Positions 1 through 16,649 of a DNA stretch of 64,000 nucleotides are shown here, one piece after another (the stretch's first letter is position 1; the number at the start of each line of letters is the position of its first letter). The notes under the pieces are model-generated. The model saw only the letters and a list, made by a program, of their open reading frames with translations. It did no database searches and was not told the origin of the DNA. Position numbers and translations under genes: made by a program. The stretch comes from Chitinophaga sp. SYP-B3965 (GTDB taxonomy: Bacteria > Bacteroidota > Bacteroidia > Chitinophagales > Chitinophagaceae): positions 496,001-560,000 of the forward strand of contig NZ_WJFD01000001.1 of assembly GCF_009647655.1 (NCBI RefSeq), written 5' to 3'.

Positions 1-1515
1 AGTAAGGTGCCGGACATGGATGATTATGAAAAGGTAAGATGGGCGGCGGAAGTGAAATTCCTGAAAGCCTACTATCATTTCTTCCTGTTCCGCATGTACG
101 GGCCTATTCCTTTGATAGATAAAAACCTGGCTATTACCAGCAGCACTTCGGAAATAAGGGTGAAACAAGCGCCGGTAGATTCCTGCGTGAGCTATATAGC
201 CCGCCTGCTGGATGAAGCAGCAGCAGATCTGCCGCAGCGGATCGATAATGAAGCCACTGAAGCCGGCAGGATAACAAAGTCCATTGCCTTATGCGTAAAG
301 GCCCAACTGCTGGTAACAGCTGCCAGTCCTTTGTTTAACGGGAATAGTGACTATGGTACTTTTAAAGGGAAAGAAGGGGTGAACCTTTTCAATCCGCAAT
401 ATGATGAACAGAAATGGAAAACAGCAGCAGAAGCCTGTAAAGCAGCCATTGAAGAATGCCATGCCGTAGGTAATGAACTGTATGTTTTCAATCCCGCCAA
501 CTATCCCTTTACAATTTCTCCTGAAACAAGAGTGGAATTGAGTGTTCGTAATAGTGTCTGCGAGAGATGGAATAAAGAGGTGGTGTGGACCAGCACGGCC
601 AACCTGATAGGCGCCTTACAGCAAGAGTGTTTACCCCGCCTGTTTTCAGGAGATAAGCAAACCGGTACATTATCCAGTTTTGGTACACCACTCAAAGTAG
701 CAGAACAGTTCTATACAAAAAATGGTGTGCCCATTTCAGAAGATAAAACATGGGACTATGTGAGCCGGTACAATATAAAAACCGCAGTAGCAGGAGATTT
801 TCTCAGGATCAAACCTGCTTATCAAACCGCCGCACTGAATTTCGACAGAGAGGTACGCTTTTATGCCAACCTTGGTTTTGATGGTGGAAGATGGTATGGT
901 CACGGCCGTTTCAGCGATACCAGTAATACCTACCTGGAAGCAAAGCTGGGCCAGATAGCCAATAACCATGCATGGGCATATTCCATCACCGGTTACTGGC
1001 CTAAGAAACTGGTAAATCCTCAAACAGTTTCCAACGCCAATGAGATCACTTTTCAGACGTATCCCTGGCCTGTTATCCGTTTAGCCGATATGTACCTGTT
1101 GTATGCAGAGGCCCTGAATGAATCAGAAGGCCCCACTGCAGAAACCATGAAGTGGATAGATCTGGTAAGGGCACGTGCAGGTCTCAAAACCGTAGCAGAA
1201 TCCTGGACACAGTTCTCTACTAATCCCGGCGCTTATCAGCAAAAGGATGGCATGCGCAAGATCATTCACCAGGAACGACTGATAGAGATGGCTTTTGAAG
1301 GGCCCCGCTTCTGGGACCTCCGGAGATGGAAAGAAGCAGAACGTGTGTTGAACGAACCCATCACCGGCTGGAACTATGGCGGCAAAACCGCAGCAGAATA
1401 TTACACCGTGAAATCATTGTTTAACATGACTTTCCGGAAACGTGATTATCTCTGGCCGATCATGGAAAATGATCTCATTGTGAATAACAACCTGGTACAA
1501 AACCCAGGCTGGTAA
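1..1515 (+). CDS. SusD/RagB-type outer-membrane glycan-binding lipoprotein, 5' truncated
   Basis: This is the C-terminal three quarters of a SusD-family protein, the surface lipoprotein that caps a SusC transporter and delivers glycan to it. The reading frame is open to the window edge. By alignment with the complete paralogue at 11326-13233, about 125 residues are missing, including the signal peptide and lipobox. Family features visible are the helical TPR-like stretch with LKAYYHF and RMYGPIPLI, the segment LVTAASPLFNGN, and the C-terminal FEGPRFWDLRRWK followed by NNNLVQNPGW. The GTG at position 7 is an internal codon and not a credible start. The partner SusC must lie upstream of the window. 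It is followed after 23 bp by a DUF4959/DUF5000 lipoprotein gene, the same order as in the second unit. Confidence 0.93.
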   Translation, partial: SKVPDMDDYEKVRWAAEVKFLKAYYHFFLFRMYGPIPLIDKNLAITSSTSEIRVKQAPVDSCVSYIARLLDEAAADLPQRIDNEATEAGRITKSIALCVKAQLLVTAASPLFNGNSDYGTFKGKEGVNLFNPQYDEQKWKTAAEACKAAIEECHAVGNELYVFNPANYPFTISPETRVELSVRNSVCERWNKEVVWTSTANLIGALQQECLPRLFSGDKQTGTLSSFGTPLKVAEQFYTKNGVPISEDKTWDYVSRYNIKTAVAGDFLRIKPAYQTAALNFDREVRFYANLGFDGGRWYGHGRFSDTSNTYLEAKLGQIANNHAWAYSITGYWPKKLVNPQTVSNANEITFQTYPWPVIRLADMYLLYAEALNESEGPTAETMKWIDLVRARAGLKTVAESWTQFSTNPGAYQQKDGMRKIIHQERLIEMAFEGPRFWDLRRWKEAERVLNEPITGWNYGGKTAAEYYTVKSLFNMTFRKRDYLWPIMENDLIVNNNLVQNPGW

Positions 1516-1538: not shown

Positions 1539-2723
1539 ATGCGTATCATCATAATTTTTCTGGCAGTATTGTTCTTCAGCTGCAAAGAAGAACAACTGAA
1601 ACCACTGGCAGGAGGGGGCAAAGCCCCCGGCCCTGTAAGTAATGTGCAGGTGCAGAACCTCCCCGGTAAAGTAACGCTCACCTATACACTACCCAGCGAT
1701 CCTGAACTCCTGTACATAAAAGCAGAATTCGAGATCCGGCCGGGAAAGAAAATGGAGATGATCTCCACTTTCTACAACACCAATATCACACTGGATGGTT
1801 TTAGTAATACAGATGAAAGAGAAGTGAAACTGTATGCCGTAAGCCGTACAGAAGTAGCCTCCACACCTGTTACCGTGAAAGTGAAACCTTTAACGCCGCC
1901 CATAGAAAAAACATTGGCTTCTCTCAGCTTTGAAGCAGATTTTGGCGGTATCACCACCAATTTTGTCAACAATGATTCTTCCAATATCACAATAGGGGTA
2001 CTCACCAAAGATGAAAGAGGTGCCATCATACCGGCAGATAAGTTTTATACCAGCCAGAAGAGTGGCATGTTCTCCACCCGCGGTTTTGATGATAAGGAAC
2101 GCTGGTTTGGTTTGTATGTGCAGGACAGATGGGGTAATATCTCCGATACCGTAGGTAAATTGCTGACGCCTTTCGCTGAAATACAATTGGATAAGAAACT
2201 GTTCAAGGCCTATAAATTGCCAACGGATGCGCTTTTCTTTAACAACCAGCCCATGGCTAACCTATGGAATAATGTAATAGCTGGTGGTTCCAGCAGCTCC
2301 ACCAGTTGGTTGCGTACAGCGAACGGTTCCGGTGTTCCGCATTGGTTCTCTTTTGATCTGGGTGTAACGGCCAAACTCAGTCGTTTTAACTTTATTCCAA
2401 GAGGCGCCACAGATGAACAGGCGTTGTTATATAGCGCAGGAGATCCGCACCAGTTTGAAATATGGGGAAGCACCGCGCCTTCATCAGATGGCAGTTTTTC
2501 CAGCTGGGTGAAGATCATGGATTGTGAAACCGTAAAACCTTCTGGTTTACCCATCGGCACCAACTCTAACGATGATATCCTGAAAGCAATAGCAGGGCAT
2601 GAGTTCAAATTCCCGCTGGATGCACCGCCTGTAAGATACATTCGTATTAAGATGTTGCAGACATGGGGTAATTCAGATTATTTCTGGATGGCAGAGATGA
2701 CCATATTCGGGCAGCTGCGCTAA
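1539..2723 (+). CDS. DUF4959/DUF5126/DUF5000-type lipoprotein with C-terminal discoidin-like domain
   Basis: A 394-residue lipoprotein with a short hydrophobic leader ending in the lipobox FFSC (Cys15). The architecture matches accessory proteins found behind SusD genes in Bacteroidota: an N-terminal fibronectin-like part (about residues 30-115; APGPVSNVQV, YTLPSDPELLYIKA), a middle beta domain (about 120-220), and a C-terminal F5/8 type C (discoidin-like) sandwich (about 235-394; PHWFSFDLG, FEIWGS, PPVRYIRIKM). Such proteins are thought to bind glycan at the cell surface as extra SusE/F-like modules; no enzymatic motif is seen. Residues are readily aligned with the paralogue at 13258-14439. 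The sugar ligand cannot be told from sequence. Confidence 0.85.
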   Translation: MRIIIIFLAVLFFSCKEEQLKPLAGGGKAPGPVSNVQVQNLPGKVTLTYTLPSDPELLYIKAEFEIRPGKKMEMISTFYNTNITLDGFSNTDEREVKLYAVSRTEVASTPVTVKVKPLTPPIEKTLASLSFEADFGGITTNFVNNDSSNITIGVLTKDERGAIIPADKFYTSQKSGMFSTRGFDDKERWFGLYVQDRWGNISDTVGKLLTPFAEIQLDKKLFKAYKLPTDALFFNNQPMANLWNNVIAGGSSSSTSWLRTANGSGVPHWFSFDLGVTAKLSRFNFIPRGATDEQALLYSAGDPHQFEIWGSTAPSSDGSFSSWVKIMDCETVKPSGLPIGTNSNDDILKAIAGHEFKFPLDAPPVRYIRIKMLQTWGNSDYFWMAEMTIFGQLR

Positions 2724-2751
2724 CCTATTCATCAAAGAAAAAAAACGACCG

Positions 2752-3432
2752 ATGAAACATATTCAAATACTGATCATCACCGCATTTTTAATCATCACCG
2801 CCTGCGGAAAAAGTGATACAGCATATAAAGACTTTGCCCCGGGAGGGGAGATTATGTACCCGGGAAAAGTAGACTCTGTGAAACTGTACCCCGGTAATAA
2901 CCGGATTAAATTAACGTGGTTGTTGAAAATGGATTCCCGCATCACCAAATGCCGCGTGTACTGGAATCAACGGCAGGACTCTGCAGAAGTAGCCGTAACA
3001 CGCACTTCCGGTGTGGATACCATTTCCGTGTTATTAAACAATATAACGGAAGGCGCGTATAGTTTTGATGTATATTCCTATAATGCACAAGGGAATGTAT
3101 CCATTAAAACAAATGCCACCGGGGATGTGTACGGGGATTTTTATAAAAGTAACCTGGTGAACAGGCTCTTTAAAAAAGCCGTATACAGCGCAGGCAAAAC
3201 ACGCATCGAATGGGTAGTGGCAGACCCTCGTACCTTTGGACTGCAATTACGGTATAAAGATCTCGCAGGCGTAACGCAAACCCTGCTGGTGCCCTCTTCG
3301 GAGCTGATCACCAACATCCCGGCCAATGTATTGAACAACGAACTGGAATACCAGACACTTTACTTGCCAGTACCAAATGCAATTGATATATTTATGGCTA
3401 CCACTGTTAAAGTGATCGCTAAACCCGAATAA
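2752..3432 (+). CDS. DUF4998-type lipoprotein, short form
   Basis: A 226-residue lipoprotein; the leader ends in ITAC (Cys18). It carries the DUF4998 signature: GGEIMYPGKVDSV, then PGNNRIKLTW and CRVYWN, followed by a second beta-rich repeat (about 120-220). The paralogue at 14439-15584 has the same two modules plus a further discoidin-like domain of about 150 residues, which is absent here. Whether this copy lost that domain or never had it is unknown; the stop is clean and the next gene starts at the very next base, so there is no sign of recent decay. Probable role: surface glycan binding together with the upstream SusD and DUF5000 proteins. Confidence 0.82.
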   Translation: MKHIQILIITAFLIITACGKSDTAYKDFAPGGEIMYPGKVDSVKLYPGNNRIKLTWLLKMDSRITKCRVYWNQRQDSAEVAVTRTSGVDTISVLLNNITEGAYSFDVYSYNAQGNVSIKTNATGDVYGDFYKSNLVNRLFKKAVYSAGKTRIEWVVADPRTFGLQLRYKDLAGVTQTLLVPSSELITNIPANVLNNELEYQTLYLPVPNAIDIFMATTVKVIAKPE

Positions 3433-4137
3433 ATGCATAGAAGAGTCTTTTTAACCACGTCATTCATGGCCGGGATAGCCATGACCCTTCGGGCTGCAGA
3501 TAATGATCCTTTAGTGATCAATGCCGGTGTAGGCGGCAACAATACAGACGATCTTTTAAAAAGGATCGACAAGGACTGCCTCTCACACAAACCTGCACTC
3601 ACGGTACTCATGGCCGGTACGAACGACATGAACAGCCGTAAATACATTCCGCTGGAACAATACCGGAAGAACATGGGGGTGCTCATAGAAAAGATCCAGG
3701 CATCAAAAAGCAAAGTGCTGCTGATGACGATCTTACCTTTCTATGAACCCTACCTGCTCACCCGCCATGACCCTGCTTTTTATGGAACAGACGGGCCGGC
3801 TAAAAGAAGAGCAGCTGTGAATGAAACCATCAAAAGCCTGGCAGCCCAATACAAAACTGAACTGTTAGACTTAGGCACCATCTTCGAAAAAGTAGGCAAA
3901 GTAGGTTTGGATAAAGACTCGCTGATTCAGAACGAAGCCAACAGTCAGAAAACGGATGGTATCCATCCAACCGCTAATGGTTATCGTTTCATCGGCCTCG
4001 CAGTGTATGAACACATCCTCCTGCAAAAACTACCACAAAAGGGGATCGTTTGTTTTGGGGATAGCATTACTAACGGAGACGGGGGCATTAAGAAAGAAAG
4101 TTACCCGGCTTATCTGAATAAATTATTGCAATCATGA
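3433..4137 (+). CDS. SGNH/GDSL-type esterase with circularly permuted motif order
   Basis: A 234-residue exported hydrolase that probably removes acetyl or other ester groups from a glycan. The N-terminus MHRRVFLTTSFMAG looks like a Tat signal (RRxFL). All SGNH blocks are present but out of order: block II Gly in NAGVGGNNT (about 30-38), block III GTND (62-65, Asn64), block V DGIHP (Asp175, His178), and only then block I with the nucleophile, FGDSIT (Ser211), in the last 30 residues. In canonical relatives the GDS block comes first and its following helix (SYPAYLNKLL) runs directly into the VINAGVGG strand; here that helix is the C-terminus and that strand is the mature N-terminus. The start codon abuts the previous stop (TAA then ATG), so it is translationally coupled. 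It overlaps the next gene by 4 bp. Confidence 0.88.
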   Translation: MHRRVFLTTSFMAGIAMTLRAADNDPLVINAGVGGNNTDDLLKRIDKDCLSHKPALTVLMAGTNDMNSRKYIPLEQYRKNMGVLIEKIQASKSKVLLMTILPFYEPYLLTRHDPAFYGTDGPAKRRAAVNETIKSLAAQYKTELLDLGTIFEKVGKVGLDKDSLIQNEANSQKTDGIHPTANGYRFIGLAVYEHILLQKLPQKGIVCFGDSITNGDGGIKKESYPAYLNKLLQS

Positions 4138-6083
4138 GAGCGTTATTTATTGCTTTATTAGTATTATCTAATACCGTAGCCACAGGAAAAGAGAAAGTAG
4201 ACGTTTGTATCTACGGCGGAACCTCCGCCGGTGTGATAGCAGCGTATACCGCTAAGATGATGGGCCGTTCCGTTTTGCTCCTGGAACCCGGAAAACACCT
4301 CGGCGGTTTAACTTCCGGCGGCCTGGGTTACACAGATATCGGCAACAAATATGCGATCAGGGGATTATCCCTTGATTTCTACCGCCGCATAGGGCAGCAT
4401 TACGGAAAGTTTGAACAGTGGATCTTTGAACCTCATGTAGCAGAAAGTTTATTCCAGGATTACATCAGCAGGGCAAAGGTGAAAGTGATGTACGATCAAC
4501 GCATCACCAATGCTACGAAAGTACAGCAAAAGATCACCAGTATTACACTGGAAGGAGGGCTCGAAGTAGAAGCTAAAATGTACATCGACTGTTCCTACGA
4601 AGGAGACCTGATGGCAAAAGCCGGCGTTTCCTTCACCATAGGAAGAGAAGCTAACAGCCAGTACGGAGAAAAGTATAACGGTGTGCAATTGGCGGATGGC
4701 CATCAATTCCCCGACGGCATAGATCCCTACAAAACCCCCGGCGATCCCAAAAGCGGATTGCTCTGGGGCATCAGTCCTGCTGTACTGGAAGCTACCGGAA
4801 GCGGCGATAAATGTGTACAGGCTTACAATTACCGGATCTGCCTCAGCAATGATCCCGCTAATATGGTGCCCATCACCAAACCGGATAATTATGATCCTGC
4901 GCATTATGAACTCCTCGCACGATTAATAAAAGCGCAGCCGGAGAAATTGACGTTCAGCGATTATTTCATCGTGAGCAGAATGCCCAATAACAAAACAGAC
5001 ATCAATAACAGGAATGGTTTTTCCACAGATATGATAGGCATGAACTATGATTATCCTGCTGCGGATTATGCCACCAGGGCAAAGATCATCAAGGAACATG
5101 AAGACTATACCAAAGGGCTGCTTTATTTTATGGGAAATGATCCCCGTGTACCGGAACAGATCCGCACCAGCATCAGCAAATGGGGTTATCCGAAAGATGA
5201 ATACACAGATAATGGCAACTGGTCTCCCCAATTATACATCCGTGAAGCCCGCCGTTTGGTAGGCCAATACGTGATGACGCAGGCAAACTGTACCGGTAAA
5301 ACGGTTGTTACAGATGGCGTAGGAATGGCTGCTTACACCATGGATTCTCATAACACACAACGCCTCGTGGTGAATGGTATGGTGAAGAATGAAGGGAATG
5401 TGGAAGTAGGTGGTTTTCCGCCTTATCCTGTTGGTTATGCTGCATTGATCCCTAAAACGGAAGATTGCAGTAACCTGCTGGTACCGGTTTGTTTGTCCGC
5501 CACACATATTGCATATGGTTCCATCCGCATGGAACCCGTATTTATGGCATTGGCGCAATCCACCGCCATTGCAGCAGACCTTGCTATCACCAACAAACAA
5601 ACGGTGCAGCAGGTGAACGCAGATAAGATCCGCGAAGTGTTGCAAAAGAATCCTTTAGCCAATGGCGCACAGCCAGACCTGCTGATCGATAACCGGGATT
5701 CTCTCGCAGTCACAAAACAAGGCGTATGGAGAAGAGGCGGTGGCGGAAGTTATGGACCGGATATGCTGAGTATTGATTCCGGCGCTACAGACCTGCGCAC
5801 AGTTCAATTTACAGCACGGGGTCTCAAAGCCGGCAAGTACAATGCTTATATTTATTATCCGCACCTGAAAAAGAATACAGACATCACTACCATAAAAGTG
5901 CAAAATAAGACCGTACTGATAAAAAAAGCAGATGTCACTGTACAGGGGCAAACTTCAGGGGAATGGGTATCCATTGGATCTTATACCATTAAGAAAGGAG
6001 AGAACCCTGTTGTGCAATTTTCCAATGAAAATATAAATGGTACCGTAGTAGCCGATGCAGTGCTCTGGGTACCAGAACGTTAA
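4134..6083 (+). CDS. Secreted FAD-dependent oxidoreductase with C-terminal golvesin-like beta domain
   Basis: A 649-residue protein with an N-terminal signal peptide (about 1-18) and a Rossmann FAD-binding motif, CIYGGTSAGVIAAYTA (about 25-40), ending in the acidic residue of LLLEP. This is the FAD_oxidored family (PF12831), often labelled 'xanthan lyase' in older annotation without proof. From about residue 520 the protein has a beta-rich domain (IDNRDS, GKYNAYIYYP, VVADAVLW) typical of the golvesin C-terminal/xanthan-lyase-like module, which is probably carbohydrate-binding. Substrate and reaction are unknown; an oxidised or dehydrogenated sugar is an inference from PUL context. ATGA overlap with the esterase gene indicates coupled expression. 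A hairpin directly follows the stop. Confidence 0.85.
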   Translation: MRALFIALLVLSNTVATGKEKVDVCIYGGTSAGVIAAYTAKMMGRSVLLLEPGKHLGGLTSGGLGYTDIGNKYAIRGLSLDFYRRIGQHYGKFEQWIFEPHVAESLFQDYISRAKVKVMYDQRITNATKVQQKITSITLEGGLEVEAKMYIDCSYEGDLMAKAGVSFTIGREANSQYGEKYNGVQLADGHQFPDGIDPYKTPGDPKSGLLWGISPAVLEATGSGDKCVQAYNYRICLSNDPANMVPITKPDNYDPAHYELLARLIKAQPEKLTFSDYFIVSRMPNNKTDINNRNGFSTDMIGMNYDYPAADYATRAKIIKEHEDYTKGLLYFMGNDPRVPEQIRTSISKWGYPKDEYTDNGNWSPQLYIREARRLVGQYVMTQANCTGKTVVTDGVGMAAYTMDSHNTQRLVVNGMVKNEGNVEVGGFPPYPVGYAALIPKTEDCSNLLVPVCLSATHIAYGSIRMEPVFMALAQSTAIAADLAITNKQTVQQVNADKIREVLQKNPLANGAQPDLLIDNRDSLAVTKQGVWRRGGGGSYGPDMLSIDSGATDLRTVQFTARGLKAGKYNAYIYYPHLKKNTDITTIKVQNKTVLIKKADVTVQGQTSGEWVSIGSYTIKKGENPVVQFSNENINGTVVADAVLWVPER

Positions 6084-13257: not shown

Positions 13258-14439
13258 ATGAAGAAGATATCACACTTAATCATAGCAGCAGGTTTCCTCC
13301 TTCTTTGCAGTAAATGCAAGGAAGAAGACCGGCTGGACCATTATGCAACAGGCGCTGGTGCTCCACCACCTGTAACAAATGTAAAGATTGCCAATACACC
13401 AGGCGGTGCCATACTCACGTACGATCTTCCCAAAGATCCGAACCTCTCTTATATAAAAGCCGTATATGAAATACAACCCGGTGTTTTTAACGAAGCCAAA
13501 TCATCTTATTATACAGATACCCTGGTACTCGCCGGATACGGAGACACGAGCCTGCATGAAGTAAAGCTCTACAGTGTAGGAAGGAATGAAAAGCCTTCAG
13601 AAGTAGTGACCGTACAAGTGAAACCATTGCTGGCCCCTGTACACGTTGCTTTTGATTCACTGAAGCTGGAAACAGCGTTCGGTGGTATAAAGATCCGTTA
13701 CGAGAATCTGTTAGAAGCAAACCTGGCCATTGTACTGATAGCAGACACCCTCAATAACGGCATATGGGTACCCCTGCAAACCTTTTATACCAGGGCCCCC
13801 GCCGGCATTGTGTCATTCCGCGGATTGCCACCGGCAGAAAAGAAGTTTGCCATTTATTTGCGGGACAGGTGGAATAATAAATCGGATACCCTCACGAGAA
13901 CGCTCACCCCTTTATTCGAAGAAAAGGTACCTAAACCTTTTAAAGCGTTGATACTACCAACAGATGAAACGATTCCGGTAGAGCCGCCTTATACTTTAGA
14001 ACAAATGTGGGACGATAAAGTAGACCAGGGCATCTTCGCATCCCGCCATAGTTCCGCTACACCACAATGGTTTACGATAGACCTTGGAAAACGGGTAGTG
14101 ATCAGCCGTATGAAAATGCATCAGCGCGCACCTAACTATACCTACACCGGTGCTAATGTAAAATCCTTTGAATTATGGGGAAGTAATAACCCGGATACAA
14201 ACGGAGGCTGGAATAACTGGACGATGATCGGCAGTTTCCAGTCATACAAGCCATCAGGATTACCTTCCGGAAAAGTAAGTGCAGAGGATATCGCCTATGC
14301 ACATACGAACGGAGAAGATTTTGATGTACAGGAGATCCCACCTGCTTTCCGCTATGTCCGCTTTAAAACGACGGCTACTTATGGTGGTGGCGCGCAGGTC
14401 ACCATTGCAGAACTTTCATTCTGGGGGCAGATTCAATAA
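13258..14439 (+). CDS. DUF4959/DUF5126/DUF5000-type lipoprotein with C-terminal discoidin-like domain
   Basis: A 393-residue paralogue of the protein at 1539-2723. The leader ends in LCSKC (Cys20) followed by KEEDR, an acidic stretch of the kind associated with surface export of Bacteroidota lipoproteins. The N-terminal part has PPPVTNVKIANTPGGAIL and LPKDPNLSYIKA; a middle beta domain follows; the C-terminal discoidin-like domain has PQWFTIDLGKRVVISRMKM, FELWGSNN and AFRYVRFKT. Probable role: surface binding of the glycan imported by the neighbouring SusC/SusD pair. The stop overlaps the start of the next gene by one base (TAATG), indicating translational coupling. Confidence 0.86.
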   Translation: MKKISHLIIAAGFLLLCSKCKEEDRLDHYATGAGAPPPVTNVKIANTPGGAILTYDLPKDPNLSYIKAVYEIQPGVFNEAKSSYYTDTLVLAGYGDTSLHEVKLYSVGRNEKPSEVVTVQVKPLLAPVHVAFDSLKLETAFGGIKIRYENLLEANLAIVLIADTLNNGIWVPLQTFYTRAPAGIVSFRGLPPAEKKFAIYLRDRWNNKSDTLTRTLTPLFEEKVPKPFKALILPTDETIPVEPPYTLEQMWDDKVDQGIFASRHSSATPQWFTIDLGKRVVISRMKMHQRAPNYTYTGANVKSFELWGSNNPDTNGGWNNWTMIGSFQSYKPSGLPSGKVSAEDIAYAHTNGEDFDVQEIPPAFRYVRFKTTATYGGGAQVTIAELSFWGQIQ

Positions 14440-15584
14440 TGGTTAAACAGCTAAATATGAGAACAGTAATATTTGTCGCTGCCATGGCTTTATTAGTAGT
14501 GGCCGCCTGCAAAAAAATGGACGATAGCTATAAACAATATATCATACCCGGTGGTATAGTATATCCCGGCAAACCCATCCAGGCAAAATTTCATCCGGGT
14601 AAGAACCGCGCCATGGTTTCCTGGAAAAGAGGCACAGATCCCAAGATCGTTAAAGCACGTATCTACTGGAATAACTTTACCGATTCAGTAGAAGTACAGA
14701 TTGCACCCAAACAGGATTCCATTTCCCATATTTTCACGAGTCTCCAGGAAACCATTTATTCCTACACCATCAGGACCATCGATGAGAATGGAAATAAATC
14801 CGTTCCCGTAGAACTCACCGGCTCAGTATTTGGAGACCGTTACCAGGCATCTTTACTAAACCGTGCTATTGCCAGCGCCACTATCGGAGAGGATGATCAG
14901 CTCACCATTATATGGGGAGCAGCAGATACCACCAATGGCGCACGTGCAACAGAAGTACGTTACACAACAGTAACCGGCCAAACCGCCATCGCTTCTTTCT
15001 CCGCAAAGAAAGATACCAGTTATGTTACAGGTGTACAGGGCAGTGCAGGTTTTGAATACCGTACTGTATTCACACCGGATACATTAGCGATAGACACTTT
15101 CTATACAGACTATCAGCAAATGCCCGCCAACTTCATGCAAATAGCCCGCAGCACCTGGACGGCCACAGCAGATACCTATGAGCTGAATGGCCAGTTACCC
15201 AACGGTGCACCCAATAAAGTACTGGATGGAGACATAGGAAGTTACTGGCACACCAATCACAGCAGATCACCGGTAACAGGTTATCCGCACTGGCTGGCGT
15301 TCAACATGAACCGCCGCGTAAAAGTAGACCGTGTAGTACTAACATCCAGAAGTGATTATGTAAGAGAAGATTTTACAGACTTCATTGTACAGGGCAGTGA
15401 TGATGGCAACACCTGGCAGAACTATGGCAATTTCACGCTCGCTGAAATAACAGGCCCTCAATCTTTCACCATCACAGGAGCCCCAGTCATGAAATATCTA
15501 AGGATCTGGCAGGTAAGGAATGCCACCGGCTCACCGCATTCCCATCTGGCAGAATTCTCCGTATACGGAAGCTTTGCACAATAA
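14439..15584 (+). CDS. DUF4998-type lipoprotein with C-terminal F5/8 type C (discoidin) domain
   Basis: A 381-residue lipoprotein. The hydrophobic leader runs to VVAAC (Cys24 from the first Met); the Met at codon 7 (14457) gives a more usual signal peptide, but the 1-bp overlap with the upstream stop favours coupling at 14439. The DUF4998 core (GGIVYPGKPIQAKFHPGKN, ARIYWN) spans about 35-225 and matches the short protein at 2752-3432. Residues about 230-381 add a discoidin-like domain (NKVLDGDIGSYWHTNH, HWLAFNMNRRVKVDRVVL, KYLRIWQV), a fold that often binds sugars. This is the last gene of the right-hand PUL unit; a strong terminator follows. Confidence 0.86.
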   Translation: MVKQLNMRTVIFVAAMALLVVAACKKMDDSYKQYIIPGGIVYPGKPIQAKFHPGKNRAMVSWKRGTDPKIVKARIYWNNFTDSVEVQIAPKQDSISHIFTSLQETIYSYTIRTIDENGNKSVPVELTGSVFGDRYQASLLNRAIASATIGEDDQLTIIWGAADTTNGARATEVRYTTVTGQTAIASFSAKKDTSYVTGVQGSAGFEYRTVFTPDTLAIDTFYTDYQQMPANFMQIARSTWTATADTYELNGQLPNGAPNKVLDGDIGSYWHTNHSRSPVTGYPHWLAFNMNRRVKVDRVVLTSRSDYVREDFTDFIVQGSDDGNTWQNYGNFTLAEITGPQSFTITGAPVMKYLRIWQVRNATGSPHSHLAEFSVYGSFAQ

Positions 15585-15716: not shown

Positions 15717-16649
15717 ATGAACAGGCACATTCTAACCAGTCTCTCTATCGCTCTTGTAATGATGGTAATGGCATCCTGCCAATCCAGTCCAAAAGAAAGT
15801 CAAAACGATTCAACGGTTACTGCACCAAAAGATACGACTGTAAAACCCGCTGAAAGTGGCTACGCAGATGTGAATGGATTAAAAATGTACTACGAGGTGT
15901 ACGGCAGTGGTAAACCCATTGTGCTGCTGCATGGCTCTTTTATGAATATACCCTTGAACTGGGGGCATATTATCCCCCTGTTATCAAAGAACAGGAAAGT
16001 AATAGTAGCTGAAATGCAAGGCCACGGAAGAACAAAAGATATATCCCGTGAATTTAGTTACGAAGGCATGGCAGACGATGTATCTGGTTTGCTGAAACAT
16101 CTCAAAACAGATAGTGCAGATATATTGGGATATAGCATGGGAGGAGGAATTGCTTTCCAGGTAGCAGTACGTCATCCTGAACAGGTGCGCAGGCTTGTGA
16201 TATTATCAGGTACCTATACGCACGACGGATGGTGGCCCGATGTAGAAGCCATGTACTCAAGTATAAATGCAGATATGTTTAAAGGCAGTCCCATACAAAA
16301 ACAATACGACAGCCTTGGAAACGATCCCGCCAAATTCCCTGAGTTTGTGAAAAAAGTAATGAGCATAGACTTAAAACCTTATAATTGGTCCAAAGATGTA
16401 AAGAACATCAAAGCGCCGATATTCATGGCCATTGGCGATGCGGACGGTGTAAGATATGAACATGCACTGGAATTATTCCGGGCCAAAGGCGGCGGAAAAA
16501 TGGGAGATATACATGGCATGCCACAATCCCGTCTGGCTATCATACCAGGCACCACCCATATAGGTATGATGCAGCGAACAGATTGGCTGATCCCCATGAT
16601 CACCGACTTCCTGGATGCAGATCTTAATGCGCCACCTCCCACATTTTAA
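15717..16649 (+). CDS. Alpha/beta-hydrolase lipoprotein
   Basis: A 310-residue alpha/beta-hydrolase fold protein. The leader ends in the lipobox MASC (Cys21), followed by a Ser/Thr/Lys-rich linker to about residue 48. The catalytic set is visible: oxyanion HG at 72-73 (LLHGS), nucleophile elbow GYSMGG with Ser140, an acid in IGDADG (Asp241 or Asp243), and His281 in PGTTHIG. It resembles the broad group of esterases/hydrolases related to proline iminopeptidase and haloperoxidase-like enzymes; the substrate is unknown. It stands alone between two terminators, with direct repeats upstream that may be activator sites. Confidence 0.85.
   Translation: MNRHILTSLSIALVMMVMASCQSSPKESQNDSTVTAPKDTTVKPAESGYADVNGLKMYYEVYGSGKPIVLLHGSFMNIPLNWGHIIPLLSKNRKVIVAEMQGHGRTKDISREFSYEGMADDVSGLLKHLKTDSADILGYSMGGGIAFQVAVRHPEQVRRLVILSGTYTHDGWWPDVEAMYSSINADMFKGSPIQKQYDSLGNDPAKFPEFVKKVMSIDLKPYNWSKDVKNIKAPIFMAIGDADGVRYEHALELFRAKGGGKMGDIHGMPQSRLAIIPGTTHIGMMQRTDWLIPMITDFLDADLNAPPPTF

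Follow-up and report, generated by a model that had tools for sequence, protein, structure and literature searches.

The window analysed here, a 64,000-nucleotide stretch of DNA from Chitinophaga sp. SYP-B3965, opens inside a SusC/SusD cassette that carries a gene for an SGNH hydrolase with circularly permuted sequence blocks. The gene order is SusD, DUF4959-DUF5126-DUF5000, DUF4998, esterase, FAD_oxidored-Golvesin_C, sigma, FecR, SusC and SusD, where the gene following FecR is presumed, from its position, to be SusC. Coordinates are collected in Table 1. The start codon of the esterase follows immediately on the end of the DUF4998 frame at 3432, and the frame of the FAD oxidoreductase overlaps the esterase stop by an ATGA at 4134. 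The pair formed by the DUF4959-DUF5126-DUF5000 and DUF4998 genes occurs twice in the window, at 1539-3432 and at 13258-15584; the first copy is followed by the permuted SGNH gene and the second by an alpha/beta hydrolase (15717-16649).

Table 1. Features of the permuted SGNH gene and of its neighbours, in window positions.
Feature	Position	Strand	Evidence
SusD-like gene, same cassette, runs off the window start	1..1515	+	ORF and Pfam
DUF4959-DUF5126-DUF5000 gene, same cassette	1539..2723	+	Pfam
DUF4998 gene directly upstream, probably same operon	2752..3432	+	Pfam; operon inferred from spacing
Circularly permuted SGNH hydrolase gene, 234 aa	3433..4137	+	ORF, motifs, profile and family evidence
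Export signal, residues 1-23, RRVFL Tat-like motif	3433..3501	+	Sequence; pLDDT <50; 38/41 relatives; cleavage point inferred
Block II strand and oxyanion Gly, VINAGVGGNNT, residues 28-38	3514..3546	+	Family conservation; model strand 28-30
Block III GTND, residues 62-65, N64	3616..3627	+	N64 in 56/56
Block V DGIH, D175 and H178	3955..3966	+	D175 and H178 in 57/57
Block I strand and nucleophile elbow IVCFGDSIT, residues 205-213, S211, moved to the C-terminus	4045..4071	+	Profile, conservation, PDB matches; model strand 205-209
Helix after block I, residues 224-233; leads to block II in canonical enzymes	4102..4131	+	Model; Y224 in 56/57, P225 in 57/57
Partner gene, FAD_oxidored PF12831 and Golvesin_C	4134..6083	+	Pfam; ATGA overlap with the esterase stop

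The protein has the defining residues of the SGNH superfamily, namely the serine of a GDS(L/I) motif, a block II glycine, the asparagine of GxND and a DxxH pair, in the chain order G-N-H-S and not the canonical S-G-N-H. Along the reading frame the blocks run II (G35), III (N64), V (D175, H178) and I (S211). An earlier note on this DNA had read the gene in this way, with the GDS block last, and the motifs it quoted are all present: VINAGVGGNN at residues 28-37, GTND at 62-65, DGIHP at 175-179, FGDSIT at 208-213 and SYPAYLNKLL at 223-232. We take G35 to be the oxyanion glycine, an equivalence that follows from an alignment by motif. An overlooked GDS motif further upstream, which the same note had named as evidence that would speak against a permutation, is absent: inspection of the sequence finds no second GDS elsewhere in the 234 residues, and none of 57 reading frames with the same arrangement carries a GDS-like motif before the body of the domain.

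The assignment of the C-terminal tail as a displaced block I can be followed at the level of sequence profiles. In the native protein, residues 18-185 align to Pfam Lipase_GDSL_2 from profile position 26 on, together with a second stretch. Taken by themselves, the 36 C-terminal residues hit positions 1-28 of this profile (18.6 bits, E 0.0027) and also positions 1-30 of Lipase_GDSL. When the tail is rotated to a place before the body, the Lipase_GDSL_2 score rises from 89.3 bits for the native order to 99.7, and the rotated sequence gives one match over positions 1-177 of 178. A shuffled tail yields 73.2 bits and the body alone 73.4; since shuffling abolishes the gain and the tail by itself finds the start of the profile, its match is not due to chance. 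Similarly, a profile of the permuted family aligns to canonical chains in the PDB with its body positions after their block I, and its positions ~196-240 match the N-terminal residues 2-50 of 4tx1, 4rw0, 2q0q and 7bxd. None of the PDB matches listed (60 of 73) has a best stretch that continues from the body into the tail. Profile scores, PDB N-termini, conservation within the family and the structural model thus all support the proposal of the earlier note, that a canonical enzyme has been cut after the helix of block I and ahead of the strand of block II.

Homologues with the same motif order, whose search the earlier note had recommended, were found in the form of 57 distinct Bacteroidota reading frames, including one fragment that stems from a broken gene. 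Membership was defined by rule, as a match to a model of the tail located after the body. Among 86 distinct SGNH frames of the collected loci this model matched after the body in the 57, before it in 10 and not at all in 19; for 30 frames from a search of the phylum the corresponding numbers are 4 (those above 290 bits), 12 and 14. Residues S211, D210, G209, D175, H178 and P225 are invariant in the 57 permuted frames, N64 is kept in 56 of 56, and G35 in 54 of 56 with D or N in the other two. The II-III-V-I order lies within a single reading frame, is conserved across a family and retains the Ser, Asn, Asp and His residues. As permuted orders are rare, an assembly error or annotation artefact that fuses two genes is the first thing to exclude. 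This reading is refuted by independent genomes that share the order, with 57 distinct frames from many assemblies, among them full-length copies at 13 loci of named genome records, and we give it practically no weight.

A scan of contigs with a peptide pattern returned 16 loci, 14 permuted (the broken L018 among them) and two canonical (L020, L021), the permuted ones belonging to Chitinophaga, Pedobacter, Mucilaginibacter, Niabella, Parapedobacter and Persicitalea. In the genus sample, 34 of 79 genomes hold 36 places scoring at least 207 bits, four of which were assigned by score and coverage alone, and the other matches listed reach at most 60.6 bits. Matches occur in 17 of 294 genomes of the family sample at E 1e-20 (one being a 79-residue fragment), in 4 of 395 of the class sample, and in 5 of 395 of the phylum sample at E 1e-15, where one of the five (L055) is canonical; with a broader profile the remaining four reach at least 293.7 bits, and the next match 93.0. 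Permuted and ordinary SGNH genes are thus separated by a gap in score in both the genus and the phylum sample. These samples overlap, and in the larger ones 6 to 9 candidates per genome were scored. Taxa beyond Bacteroidota were covered by the peptide-pattern scan, which reaches close relatives, and by plasmid and phage collections. A mobile or phage origin was considered and rejected, as 80% of the query was not covered at any one place in the records with a match (0 of 4 plasmid and 0 of 26 phage records). At the margin of the family, the tail of its most distant member (L071) scores 11.0 bits. The broken gene mentioned above lies in Niabella defluvii (L018, 5857-6593) and is split over two frames.

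Alternatively, the protein might be a truncated relic that has lost block I and binds a ligand without cutting it, its C-terminal GDSIT being a coincidence or an unrelated addition. The frame does lack an N-terminal block I, and the tail has changed faster than the body: when the gene in the window is compared with those of two near relatives, which have the same length, the numbers of synonymous to replacement codon changes are 10:5 and 10:4 for the tail, 55:7 and 51:8 for the body, and 8:5 and 8:7 for the signal, so that the ratio of the tail is closer to that of the signal than to that of the body. These counts indicate that over a short distance the tail is less constrained than the body, although its motif residues remain invariant in the family. 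Against a relic, synonymous changes still exceed replacements in the tail, GDS and P225 are found in 57 of 57 frames, and the tail aligns to block I of two Pfam families and to the N-termini of PDB chains. We consider a relic very improbable, and read the tail as a retained block I.

The N-terminus ahead of block II appears to have been taken over by an export signal. A Tat-type signal on the new N-terminus was part of the original reading of the gene, and an RRVFL motif is indeed present. A Tat-like R[RK]x[FMA][LIV] N-terminus occurs in 38 of 41 frames whose body scores above 200 bits and in none of the 16 lower-scoring ones, one of which is a fragment that lacks its N-terminus. Nine of these 16 have instead a lipobox-like N-terminus, whose cysteine precedes the block II match by 6 to 17 residues. 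These patterns suggest that the protein is exported, by a Tat-like signal here and, in some of the distant relatives, probably as a lipoprotein. In some PDB alignments, which begin at residue 3, RRVFLTTSFMAG is matched to the block I of canonical chains. A hidden N-terminal block I can be ruled out, since this part of the protein is the signal and position S10 varies (S in 11 of 57 frames), and it is also contradicted by the position of the lipobox-like cysteines.

AlphaFold, run on an input alignment of 14 sequences, models the full chain with a pLDDT of 80.5 and a pTM of 0.80, and the tail as a strand, a nucleophile loop and a helix. Values of pLDDT fall below 50 at residues 1-23, at 169-171 before block V and at 214-220 next to the nucleophile. 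The body folded without its tail reaches 84.4 and 0.84, means above those of the full chain, which includes the signal; AlphaFold thus predicts a fold for the rest of the chain even when the tail is missing. Without the tail, residues 184-198 have a pLDDT of about 85, compared with 87 (181-190) and 97 (191-200) when it is present, and the model loses the block II strand at 28-30. The strand of block I is generally the sole pairing partner of the block II strand in canonical SGNH sheets, and the loss of the block II strand in the control therefore fits a tail strand in its canonical place. The model supports a placement of strand 205-209 in the position of the first strand beside that of block II, with S211 following as in canonical enzymes, and places D175 and H178 before the last helix of the body. 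Judged by their titles, most of the Foldseek matches listed (50 of 1602) are lipases, esterases and thioesterases of the GDSL/SGNH type; the listing also has the designed scaffolds 9hi4-9hi6, which match the protein described here by sequence too, and one entry with an alpha/beta hydrolase title, 5jd3. The best among them is 1yzf, with a TM of 0.58 by query length and 0.69 by target length; by query length the listed matches span 0.39-0.58, and Foldseek itself does not show the placement of the tail.

How does this arrangement relate to known SGNH systems? No match to DHHW or to ALGX, which we take to be the Pfam family of AlgX and AlgJ, is listed for the protein in Pfam at E 10, a search in which the HMMER filters drop most matches above E 0.1. 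Compared with canonical SGNH/GDSL_2 hydrolases (PF13472; for example 1yzf, 3p94, 4iyj, TesA and the acetylxylan esterase Axe2), the protein has the same four blocks and canonical residues and covers nearly the full profile once the tail is moved to the front; it differs in having block I and its helix at the C-terminus. Sequence matches to CAZy-related proteins are distant for Axe2 chains, and AxeA1 stays far below its cut-off.

Permuted families are counted within the SGNH superfamily in the available text of PMC9487903. Rearranged SGNH folds had been called rare in the earlier note; this needs qualifying, because AlgX, AlgJ, PatB1 and WssI were already known as permuted, but their cut point is a different one. 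Where the accessible portions of the sources give an order, it is H-S-G-x with block V first (PMC9487903, PMC4148444, PMC5697884, PMC10302187). AlgX and AlgJ, which act in alginate O-acetylation, share a permuted SGNH core and the same cyclic block order, but are cut between blocks III and V, with H-S-G-Y/N, GTSYS, DxH and Tyr in place of Asn, as far as the available text goes (PMC9487903, PMC4148444); the protein described here keeps Asn, GDSIT and DxxH. PatB1 of Bacillus cereus, from the DHHW family, likewise has a permuted core, but follows the order H-S-G-N, with KDS, DXRY and TDHHW motifs and another cut, and the cellulose O-acetyltransferase WssI has the order H-S-G-D and another cut (again from parts of PMC9487903 and PMC10302187, respectively). 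Membership in AlgX or DHHW is ruled out by block order and motifs together with the Pfam result. We found no earlier description of a G-N-H-S SGNH protein in the open-licence literature, and one may exist elsewhere; the available parts of PMC3779223, PMC13276840, PMC6385246, PMC5408684 and PMC12419801 describe no such case.

These comparisons bear on the activity. The named SGNH permutants are described, in the portions available, as O-acetyltransferases (PMC9487903, PMC10302187), and by analogy the protein could be an O-acyltransferase and not a hydrolase. Several observations make this improbable. The block III Asn, GDSIT and DxxH are retained, which AlgX/AlgJ and PatB1 lack or alter according to the same partial sources. 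No MBOAT partner occurs among 30 neighbouring proteins scanned with Pfam, a part of the neighbours with 10 taken from each of three sets. The setting, moreover, looks catabolic, with SusC/D genes and, beside some relatives, glycosidases of GH92 (L106), GH2 and GH130 (L107) or GH116 (L100). The gene most probably encodes an active, exported, circularly permuted SGNH carbohydrate O-acylesterase, where activity and substrate are deduced from sequence and setting. As in a normal SGNH esterase, H178 and D175 would activate S211, the oxyanion hole would be formed by the NH groups of S211 and G35 and the side chain of N64, and an acyl group, most likely acetyl, would be cleaved off a glycan, or a fragment of one, that the neighbouring SusC/D cassette handles. 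If this holds, the SGNH fold has been cut in nature at a second point, one that brings the nucleophile close to the C-terminus. The active site could then form only after the whole protein has been made, which would turn the family into a natural test case for the effect of permutation on folding and export. The arrangement is easily overlooked, because profile searches report a GDSL hydrolase with a late start.

The evolutionary path can be approached with phylogeny and with the SGNH genes of the source genome. The main tree comprises 50 permuted (rotated) and 23 canonical rows; short rows (L018, L020, L021), rows without the motif pattern used (L119, L128, L096) and near-copies above 92% identity were left out. 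It needs two changes of label, a single change being found in 32% of bootstrap trees, and the free tree sets one canonical group among the permuted rows. A single clade of permuted rows is not rejected (p-AU 0.486), and a reduced tree, in which three long rows (L071, L055, L069) are omitted as well, needs one change at a branch support of 38. From these values a single origin of the permutation is possible but weakly resolved. Side-by-side and fused SGNH genes occur in the source genome (L003, L075), which makes tandem duplication and truncation a plausible route. It is probable, from this inferred path, that the permutation arose by tandem duplication and fusion of an SGNH gene, after which the outer parts were lost. 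An intermediate carrying block I at either end of the protein was sought among the collected loci and not recovered: the one protein with two tail-like matches (L005, L075, L079) has two SGNH domains. In L075 this is a 722-residue protein with two SGNH domain matches (source genome C9, ~398850-400832); the segment that separates the two matches resembles a hydrolase, on visual inspection only. The source genome has 17 Lipase_GDSL_2 stretches, two of which, besides the permuted gene, start late in the profile, at position 39 (L082, C13:133387-133839) and at position 52 (L086, C1:2323543-2323938); in L082 a long insert comes after an N-terminal GDS.

A second recurring feature, observed here for the first time, is the FAD oxidoreductase next to the esterase. 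A homologue of the enzyme in the window lies within 6 kb of the esterase, on either side of it, in 20 of 22 close-relative loci, which are non-independent as several come from near-related Chitinophaga (13 of 14 loci, with L015 as exception and a partial gene in L018, and 7 of 8, with L105 as exception). At greater distance, 7 of 12 loci have a PF12831 gene up to ~11 kb away (L089, L090, L091, L092, L093, L098 and L100; six confirmed by Pfam, L091 by our own model only). Our model, built from close relatives and liable to miss others, found none in L094-L097 and L099, where ~6 kb on each side were searched for L095 and L096 and more for L094, L097 and L099. Because the source genome has only 10 PF12831 matches for 129 SusD matches, chance or membership in a PUL alone explains the pairing poorly. 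Proteins of 710 residues (L093, 8042-10174) and 713 residues (L100, 6949-9090), both free of Pfam matches at E 1e-5, are also encoded near distant permuted genes.

The esterase and the FAD oxidoreductase encoded with it probably share a substrate. A more far-reaching proposal, which we advance tentatively and hold to be somewhat less than an even prospect, combines these strands: the proteins would form an undescribed topological class of SGNH enzymes, with the order G-N-H-S and a C-terminal nucleophile elbow, that arose once in Bacteroidota and forms a conserved pair with an FAD oxidoreductase of PF12831, in which the esterase would uncover a sugar hydroxyl for oxidation by the flavoenzyme. 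In the open-licence literature we found no publication on an FAD oxidoreductase with a GDSL protein in a PUL and almost nothing in print on the PF12831 flavoenzymes, and the recurring neighbourhood offers a testable lead on a substrate for this family.
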